Assembly (NCBI GenBank): GCA_021161465.1
Contig: JAGHAM010000013.1
Span: 1 to 10,201 of the forward strand
Length of the DNA: 10,201 bases
Reading direction: 5' to 3'
From: Candidatus Iainarchaeum sp.
GTDB lineage: Archaea > B1Sed10-29 > WALL01 > JAGHAM01
Positions within the stretch are counted from its first letter, which is position 1, and each line of letters begins with the position of its first letter. Below are positions 146-7,488 of the stretch, one piece after another. A program made the translations under genes and the position numbers. The notes beneath the pieces were generated by a model. That model saw nothing but the letters and a program-made list of their open reading frames with translations. It was not told where the DNA came from and did no database searches.

Positions 146-234
146 CAAGCAGGGGTATAAAACAGGCAGGTCAAACAACCCAAACTAGCCAAGCAGGGGT
201 ATAAACAACCCAAACAAGCCAAGCAGGGGTTATA
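146..234. repeat. Three degenerate direct-repeat copies, ~30-bp period
   Basis: The motif CAAGCAGGGGTATA occurs at 146-159 and 190-203, and with one inserted T at 220-234. The companion motif AAACAACCCAAAC occurs at 173-185 and 203-215. The last two copies are exactly 30 bp apart. The first interval is 44 bp, as if 14 bp were inserted in one unit. There is no spacer diversity of the CRISPR kind; it looks like a short tandem duplication in the downstream flank of the tRNA gene. Confidence 0.7.
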
Positions 235-249
235 GGGGGTGCATCCCCC
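235..249 (-). terminator. G5/C5 hairpin just 3' of tRNA-Ala
   Basis: Five G at 235-239 and five C at 245-249 form a short stable stem with a 5-nt loop, beginning four bases beyond the discriminator base of the tRNA (minus-strand direction). It could be a terminator or a 3'-processing landmark for the pre-tRNA. There is no long U-tract behind it, so the terminator role is tentative. Confidence 0.3.
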
Positions 250-267
250 ATAGTGGACTCGCCGGGA

Positions 268-334
268 GTCTCCACCCATTCCAAAGGAGAAGGGTTTATA
301 AGAGAGGAGGGAATGCGTCCCTCCTCCTTCTTAT
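268..334 (-). other. Non-canonical tRNA intron in the T-loop (59/60)
   Basis: A 67-nt insertion separates UUCAAA of the T-loop from U60 and the 3' T-stem CCCGG. Exact ends are ambiguous by a base or two, because four A straddle the 5' site. A relaxed bulge-helix-bulge can be drawn: helix UUCA/UGGA, 5' bulge AAA, and a 4-nt 3' bulge GACU next to the T-stem. Most of the 5' half of the intron folds on itself in a long purine/pyrimidine hairpin (about 299-334; GAGGAGGGA against UCCCUCCUC). Introns at non-canonical tRNA positions are known in archaea whose EndA has relaxed specificity. That this archaeon has such an enzyme is inference. Confidence 0.82.
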
Positions 335-356
335 TTTGAACCCGGGACCTCTGCCG

Positions 357-417
357 TTCTCGAGCCGTGCGCTTGAGCGAAGTGAAACGCACAAAGCGCC
401 AGCCGATTTTGCGGCTG
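357..417 (-). other. Canonical tRNA intron, position 37/38
   Basis: The intron is 61 nt and its ends fit a full bulge-helix-bulge. The outer helix is CUGCC/GGCAG and the central 4-bp helix is UUCG/CGAG. The two 3-nt bulges are CAC and AAC, and the inner helix is AGCCG/CGGCU. Cleavage after the second base of each bulge gives exactly the intron stated and restores a 7-nt anticodon loop. This is the standard substrate of archaeal splicing endonuclease EndA. Confidence 0.9.
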
Positions 418-477
418 TGCGAAGGCAGCACTCTTCCAGCTGAGCTACGAGCCCACCGATTATTATTGCGTTTTTTG

Positions 478-486
478 TATTAATAT
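478..486 (-). promoter_or_regulatory. TATA box for tRNA-Ala
   Basis: TATTAATAT on the minus-strand side of the intergenic gap is centred about 28 bp upstream of the tRNA 5' end, the normal archaeal spacing. A TGTTAACA palindrome (486-493) abuts its upstream edge. Confidence 0.5.
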
Positions 487-562
487 GTTAACACACACAT
501 TATGCGACTCTTGAATTAGTAACTTTTTTATTCTAGCAGCTCGTAGTTGCAGTGGTGATTTG

Positions 563-1388: not shown

Positions 1389-1685
1389 TCACTTTTCGTT
1401 GATTGGTTCTCTGTTTATTACCTTTGTCTCGCTCACATCTTCGTCCATTGTCCAATATTTGAATCCATCAACAATAAAGTAGTGGAAGTCTTTTTTGAAA
1501 AATTTCTTCTTGAAGCCTTTCTCTCGTATAAATTCTGCAAATTCTTTAAACATATACCTATCCTTTGGCTCAACGTCTTTGAAGACTAGGTATTCGTGAG
1601 GAAATGTCTTTGCATAAGTCTTGGCAAATCTAAAATTCTTGTCATACCTTTTTAAGAAATCCTGTATTTCCACCAACGTTGCCAT
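1389..1685 (-). CDS. Uncharacterised conserved 98-aa protein
   Basis: This basic, aromatic-rich protein of 98 aa matches a pattern I associate with small uncharacterised proteins. It has RFAKTYAKTFPHEY at 19-32, then a helix (MFKEFAEFIREKGF, 45-58), a Lys/Phe stretch, and GFKYWTM (74-80) followed by TKVINRE. No catalytic function can be assigned, and there is no signal peptide or membrane span. ATG 1685 was chosen because it falls 5 nt after the RNase HII stop. A longer frame reaches back to 1796, but only by running inside rnhB. There is no clear Shine-Dalgarno sequence, so translation is probably coupled to rnhB. Confidence 0.75.
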   Translation of the reverse strand: MATLVEIQDFLKRYDKNFRFAKTYAKTFPHEYLVFKDVEPKDRYMFKEFAEFIREKGFKKKFFKKDFHYFIVDGFKYWTMDEDVSETKVINREPINEK

Positions 1686-1690
1686 ATATA

Positions 1691-6651: not shown

Positions 6652-6804
6652 TTTTCCTAAACAGTTTTCCAAGGAATCTTGTTTCATATTCTTCAATCAA
6701 ATGGTGCTTTGAATAGAACAATAGTTTCATTCTACATACATAGCAATATCTGTCAGTACATTCGGTGCTCTTTTGCTTCTCTGTTTAATCGCAATTGGGA
6801 TGTA

Positions 6805-7488
6805 CTAATCCATCTTATCGATTGCCTGGCATGCCAGATAGCAGAAAGGTGTGTCGAGTATGGCAATCGCTACCTTCACAATCCACTGCCCAGCTATGAC
6901 TGTTAGCAGGATATCATTGGACATAAGTCCATAGAAGGCTATTGATATAAATAAGAAACTGTCTATGCCCTGTGAAACTATGGTTGATGCATTGTTCCTC
7001 AACCACAGGTATTTACCCCTTGTTTTTTTCTTCCACCAGTTGAACGCCCATACATCGTGATTCTGGGATACAAGGTAAGCTATCATCGAAGCTAACACCA
7101 CTCTTGGCGTCAGATTAAAGACAGCATTGAAAGTTTCCTGGCTTACAATTGAACCCTTTGCAACTGGCCAGCTGACAGCGATAGCGATGGCTACAACAAG
7201 TATTATATTCGCCAAGAATCCAGCCCACACCGCTTTTCTGGCTTCCTTCTCACTCCACTTCTCTGATAGTATGTCAGTTATGAGAAATGTTGTGGAATAA
7301 ACAAGCACAGCAGCTGGAACCATGAATGGCCCAATCATAATCATCTTCCCGGCGATTATGTTTGCTATCACAACAAGTCCTGCAAAGGCTCCTATGGTCA
7401 GCTCAACGCCAAACTTTTTCCCAACTATCACGCTGAGTGAGCCTAAGAATAAACTAACTATTGCCCAAGCTAGAAACAGTTCAAGCAT
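6805..7488 (-). CDS. yhhQ: YhhQ/VUT family queuosine precursor transporter
   Basis: This 227-aa integral membrane protein has about six spans (roughly 2-22, 31-52, 55-73, 88-107, 130-141 and 172-212, the last region probably two). Family signatures are the TDILSEKWSEKEARKAVW motif at 71-88 and the AYLVSQNHDVWAFNWWKKKT/KYLWLRNNASTIVSQGID block at 137-176. Members import 7-deazaguanine precursors such as preQ0/preQ1, which an archaeon would feed into archaeosine (G+ at tRNA position 15). Substrate in this organism is inferred from family. It starts 10 nt after the minD stop with a GGTG ribosome-binding sequence, so the two are cotranscribed. Confidence 0.9.
   Translation of the reverse strand: MLELFLAWAIVSLFLGSLSVIVGKKFGVELTIGAFAGLVVIANIIAGKMIMIGPFMVPAAVLVYSTTFLITDILSEKWSEKEARKAVWAGFLANIILVVAIAIAVSWPVAKGSIVSQETFNAVFNLTPRVVLASMIAYLVSQNHDVWAFNWWKKKTRGKYLWLRNNASTIVSQGIDSFLFISIAFYGLMSNDILLTVIAGQWIVKVAIAILDTPFCYLACQAIDKMD

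Follow-up and report, generated by a model that had tools for sequence, protein, structure and literature searches.

A doubly interrupted alanine tRNA gene and its T-loop intron family in a Diapherotrites-like archaeon with an alpha4-type EndA

Transfer RNA introns at unusual positions, including the T-loop, with several per tRNA and large-scale transposition between genes, are best known from the Thermoproteales (PMC4090602, PMC4033280, PMC6379350), and both intron transposition and introns at tRNA site 59/60 are phenomena of an already known kind. In this article, I describe a tRNA-Ala(CGC) gene in a 10,201-nucleotide stretch of DNA from Candidatus Iainarchaeum sp. (the window) and the tRNA genes of the genome to which it belongs (G000), which resemble the Thermoproteales in carrying introns at canonical and non-canonical positions with several per gene (PMC4090602, PMC4033280) and near-identical introns in tRNAs for different amino acids (Fujishima 2010, cited in PMC4090602 and PMC4033280). 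That system has a crenarchaeal host with an (alpha-beta)2 EndA and introns in about 70% of tRNAs, whereas the host here is a DPANN archaeon with an alpha4-type EndA and introns in every tRNA gene detected; also unlike the Thermoproteales, 32 of 38 genes are interrupted at a single site, 59/60, and a gene may hold up to four introns against a reported maximum of three (PMC4033280). The Asgard Atabeyarchaeia and Freyarchaeia are similar in that 92-95% of their tRNA genes have introns, often non-canonical and in over half of cases several, but they belong to a different phylum, and the portion of the report available gives neither intron families, T-loop dominance nor EndA type (PMC11291895). ARMAN-2, like the present organism, is ultrasmall and has introns at unusual places in its tRNAs (PMC6379350, PMC12397907), although its epsilon2 EndA is a three-unit protein of 390-395 amino acids possessing a loop with a key Lys, compared to the 170 amino acids, collinear with the Methanocaldococcus jannaschii alpha4 enzyme, found here. 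A literature search, mostly outside subscription journals, returned no report of such tRNA introns for Diapherotrites, and the host with its enzyme context, an apparently saturated tRNA set, the T-loop bias, the four introns per gene and the fit of the intron end to the near-universal T-loop sequence appear to be new.

The window locus is indeed an alanine tRNA gene, and two introns interrupt it, as a first-pass annotation made from the letters alone had proposed when it noted that the cloverleaf closes if two segments are removed. The whole gene spans window positions 454..254 on the minus strand, where exon 1 (tRNA positions 1-37; 418..454) is followed by a 61-nt intron at site 37/38 (357..417), exon 2 (positions 38-59; 335..356) ending in the T-loop UUCAAA, a 67-nt intron at site 59/60 that belongs to a T-loop family that I call A (268..334), and exon 3 (positions 60-73; 254..267). 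Splicing these pieces leaves a 73-nt product that ARAGORN accepts as tRNA-Ala(CGC), with a 7-bp acceptor including the alanine identity pair G3-U70, a 5-bp anticodon stem and an intact 5-bp T-stem, the acceptor and T-stem being as the annotation had anticipated. Its warning that a standard scan may miss the gene also proved justified, with neither ARAGORN nor Rfam finding a tRNA in the unspliced window DNA. An AT-rich stretch, TTAACATATTAATA (window 478-491, minus strand), lies about 25-37 nt upstream and is a plausible archaeal TATA box. On the 3' side there is a 30-nt tandem repeat of 1.9 copies (window 173-230) and, directly adjoining the gene, an intron-like hairpin (223-251, minus strand).

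Both introns can be folded into the bulge-helix-bulge (BHB) structure. Intron 1 forms the canonical 3-4-3 BHB that had been predicted for it: all 13 of its outer, central and inner pairs are standard, and the central helix joins exon bases UUCG (positions 32-35; 420..423) to intron bases CGAG (359..362). This strict BHB is the MFE fold in the related genome G001 and lies 4.8 kcal/mol above the MFE, a competing fold, in the window. Intron 1 also shares 58 nt at 90% identity with part of the Ala(TGC) intron, and the exon-pairing bases are among the differences (CGAG here, CAAG there), each matching its own anticodon loop. Intron 2 departs from the strict BHB, in which a 4-bp helix is flanked by a 3-nt bulge on either side, but it does have an exon-intron central helix beside the splice site and can be counted as the relaxed version previously suggested for it. 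Here exon bases UUCA (positions 54-57; 337..340) pair over 4 bp with intron bases UGGA (271..274), followed by a 4-nt 3' bulge, GAC^U, and the structure lies 2.3 kcal/mol above the MFE; one hairpin (298..334) starts at the 5' splice site and recurs in other T-loop introns, while a second (ACCC...GGGU; 274..295) is inserted as a further arm, turning the BHB into a three-way junction.

The spliced gene was compared by BLAST against 20 relatives, only one of which, the MAG G001, is from the same family. There Ala(CGC) lies on one contig in three pieces (positions 1-37, 38-59 and the 3' end), with exons 95-100% identical to those of the window (exon 1 at 100%) and with an orthologous intron at each of the two sites, 24 and 46 nt long and different in sequence; both introns are therefore older than the split of the two genera. 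Uninterrupted Ala(CGC) genes occur in G002, G006, G011, G013 and others of the order and class, where the T-loop reads TTCAAAT or TTCGAAT, and these intact loops fix the second junction at 59/60. The boundaries first drawn for both introns are upheld; since the gene is conserved in relatives, chance can be excluded as the source of the cloverleaf. In the sister genus, about 29-30 tRNAs are recognized by the Rfam model and at least four T-loop introns are present, compared to 32 of 38 genes here, and the T-loop intron expansion therefore looks recent, as judged from these genomes. Close EndA relatives are labelled Candidatus Diapherotrites.

The first-pass annotation treated the interrupted gene as a single locus, and this part of its reading needs to change, because all tRNA genes found are interrupted and intron 2 is one member of a repeated family. 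The window genome measures 976 kb in 40 contigs at 93% completeness and 0.17% contamination, and the Rfam tRNA model matches it only 8 times (6 with stricter filters) compared to 13-45 times in 40 other archaeal genomes, with all 8 matches carrying introns. Aligning the clade's tRNAs with introns allowed, over 345 kb of sampled stretches plus the loci returned by whole-genome intron-family searches, gave 38 curated genes whose spliced forms ARAGORN accepts as tRNA; Trp and some isoacceptors were not found and the set is incomplete. Every one of the 38 is interrupted, by 76 introns in total, which occupy site 37/38 in 26 cases and 59/60 in 31 genes (32 with His, where the numbering is one base off), the D-arm in 13, the variable loop in 2 and other places in the anticodon arm in 2, while Cys has one short T-arm insert that can be placed only approximately. 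Of the 38 genes, nine carry a single intron, 22 carry two, five carry three and two carry four; no uninterrupted tRNA gene was detected among the Rfam matches to the whole genome or the 38 curated genes, and a further candidate (X15, L213 at about 6757-7044) was rejected as no tRNA. The four-intron genes are Pro(GGG) (L267, about 1470-1690, minus strand) and Lys(CTT) (L238, 1378-1630, plus strand), and their introns at 30/31, 32/33 and the variable loop look by eye like strict BHBs. Standard annotation of such a genome would call almost no tRNAs. The assembly is also broken by these intron repeats, three contigs (L214 and L257 at the start, L255 at the end) stopping within T-loop introns of Ser tRNAs that are almost identical to one another.

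Most of the T-loop introns fit the tRNA in which they sit. Their closing bases, UGRA, pair with UUCA, the near-universal sequence of the T-loop; in 31 of 35, a helix can form between exon UUCR (positions 54-57) and four intron bases situated 2-3 nt ahead of the 3' splice site, whereas shuffled introns give this exon-intron helix in a mean of 1.1 and a maximum of 5; the 31 include members of the same family and do not count as independent events. The short intron of Gln is separate from the rest and forms a strict 3-4-3 BHB in which G57 meets a matching intron C (UUCG/CGAA), a compensatory pair. Most T-loop introns also possess a second hairpin, which faces the 5' bulge and creates a three-way junction. 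About half of the T-loop introns have a 3' bulge of 3 nt, and the remainder, with that of the window among them, have one of 4 nt. The MFE fold itself contains the central helix in five of the folded introns (Gln, Val(CAC), both Glu and Asp). The T-stem pairs covary across the introns in 18 genes, and RNAalifold on 18 T-loop introns recovered this stem alone because MAFFT misaligned the two intron families; the T-loop folds given here come from constraining each intron separately.

The second of these families, B, is found in Gly, Phe, Ile and other tRNAs and takes in introns like those of G001 Ala(CGC), Leu(GAG), Gly(CCC) and Arg(TCT). Intron 2 of the window shares 92% identity over 62 nt with the T-loop intron of Ala(GGC) and is closely related to those of Lys(TTT), Asp, Glu and Val(CAC). 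In whole-genome searches with both families, the strong copies sit in tRNA genes except for the hairpin 3' of the window tRNA, whose 29 nt are 93% identical to the Pro(CGG) T-loop intron and represent the one copy detected elsewhere than in a tRNA gene. Among T-loop introns from tRNAs for different amino acids, 23 pairs are at least 85% identical over 45 nt, and the exon flanks of those pairs have an identity of 0.38, the same as the background; near-identical introns with flanks at background level are what intron-precise movement predicts, and near-identical introns in unrelated tRNAs without shared flanks are also the pattern of transposition in the Thermoproteales. These comparisons of sequence show that T-loop introns have evidently moved between unrelated tRNAs without their exon flanks. 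The T-loop introns of Gly(CCC) (L209, 2633-3074) and Leu(CAG) (L239, 1395-1676) are 318 and 165 nt long, and shorter units recur within them, as though introns had landed inside other introns.

According to PMC6379350, only (alpha-beta)2 and epsilon2 EndA enzymes remove relaxed introns efficiently, and alpha4 is narrow. The window genome has one EndA gene, encoding 170 amino acids with the Tyr, His and Lys, and the protein aligns end to end and without insertions with the M. jannaschii alpha4 enzyme (1A79; E 6e-40), making it a single short catalytic subunit collinear with that enzyme, or alpha4-type; relative to M. jannaschii EndA, its sequence has no CSL or ASL insertion with the key Lys. 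No second EndA subunit or three-unit fusion was found in G000 at E values up to 10, and the only other match that the two genomes G000 and G001 give at this level lies on TruD in G001. The C-terminus, KIERFRP, has Arg where the aligned Aeropyrum pernix enzyme has Trp (IDWFRP), and if the positions can be equated this residue resembles the Arg/Arg pair given for alpha4 and alpha-prime-2 EndA (PMC12397907). An AlphaFold model of the protein (pLDDT 72) was not used as evidence. A full RtcB ligase is present. The claim that the second intron implies an EndA of relaxed specificity finds no straightforward confirmation in the genome: the BHB of intron 2 is relaxed, but the sole EndA found is alpha4-type without a CSL- or ASL-like insertion. 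The published rule and this enzyme together make the window genome a possible exception, bearing in mind that the T-loop BHBs are near canonical and that 7% of the genome is missing; either this alpha4 EndA has a wider range than supposed, or a strict enzyme can still handle a T-loop BHB so close to the canonical form.

Taking these observations together, the locus is very probably functional and the only tRNA-Ala(CGC) gene that this Diapherotrites-like DPANN archaeon has, with two BHB introns predicted to be processed by an alpha4-type EndA and RtcB and a T-loop family spread by intron-precise transposition, expression and splicing being deduced from the DNA. In the transcript, the archaeal BHB introns at sites 37/38 and 59/60 would both be cut out by the single EndA, and RtcB would join the exons into a normal tRNA-Ala(CGC). 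One could instead propose a decaying pseudogene that has collected inserts while another tRNA reads GCG codons, and 128 nt of inserts in a 73-nt gene unseen by standard finders would suit this; however, all stems are intact, the intron positions are kept in G001 and all other tRNA genes found are in a like state. Furthermore, the intact second tRNA-Ala(CGC) that the first-pass annotation had named as grounds for abandoning its reading is absent from whole-genome searches of the 93% complete assembly, which return only this locus and interrupted Ala(TGC) and Ala(GGC) genes, and decay is thus highly improbable. It is harder still to credit that repeats wrongly joined fragments in a contaminated or misassembled MAG, since G001, which is an independent MAG, shows the arrangement again but with introns of different sequence, T-stems covary across the introns in 18 genes and contamination is 0.17%, even if the assembly is in 40 contigs and some end inside T-loop introns.

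Given a real and functional gene, the manner of spread and the nature of the enzyme are still to be weighed. The GGTTCAAA stretch common to most tRNAs could seed recombination at the 5' side, and Gly(TCC) and Gly(GCC) have introns in common together with identical T-stems, so that gene conversion or duplication of whole tRNA segments, rather than of the intron alone, can be imagined; such a route is unlikely given that the flanks of near-identical introns are at background likeness between tRNAs of different amino acids. I favor intron-precise transposition of the intron 2 family into nearly all tRNA genes of this genome, in which the UGRA end, by pairing with UUCR at 54-57, would allow the same intron to form the BHB central helix in any host tRNA, and it is because this UUCR is common to nearly every tRNA that such an intron may have been able to spread. 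As to the enzyme, the known genomes rich in introns of this sort have broad types (PMC6379350, PMC4033280), and a diverged second subunit of an (alpha-beta)2 or other broad EndA might have been missed or lie in a gap of a genome that is 93% complete; with one EndA in G000, one in most class relatives and the other match landing on TruD, I regard this as a rather improbable account compared to a lone alpha4-type EndA. The boldest form of the proposal, which I would hold with evenly divided belief, is that a T-loop intron family saturates the tRNA genes, that 3' end pairing with the near-universal UUCR makes almost any tRNA a legal landing site, and that an alpha4-type EndA without CSL or ASL processes relaxed three-way-junction BHBs. 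If true, this would overturn the rule by which an EndA has to have either a second subunit or a special loop to be broad in specificity.

This genome challenges the connection usually accepted between the type of EndA and the diversity of introns, and it also offers a natural test of how tRNA introns spread and suggests a simple reason for a hot spot, namely that the T-loop sequence is the same in nearly all tRNAs and one intron fits most. Movement between sites is also suggested by the Asp(GTC) gene of G001 (L249), whose 37/38 intron has a hairpin in common with T-loop family B. Finally, Rfam tRNA counts are also low in three other genomes, G012, G009 and G040 (15, 17 and 18, with 85-92% completeness), which may likewise be rich in introns.
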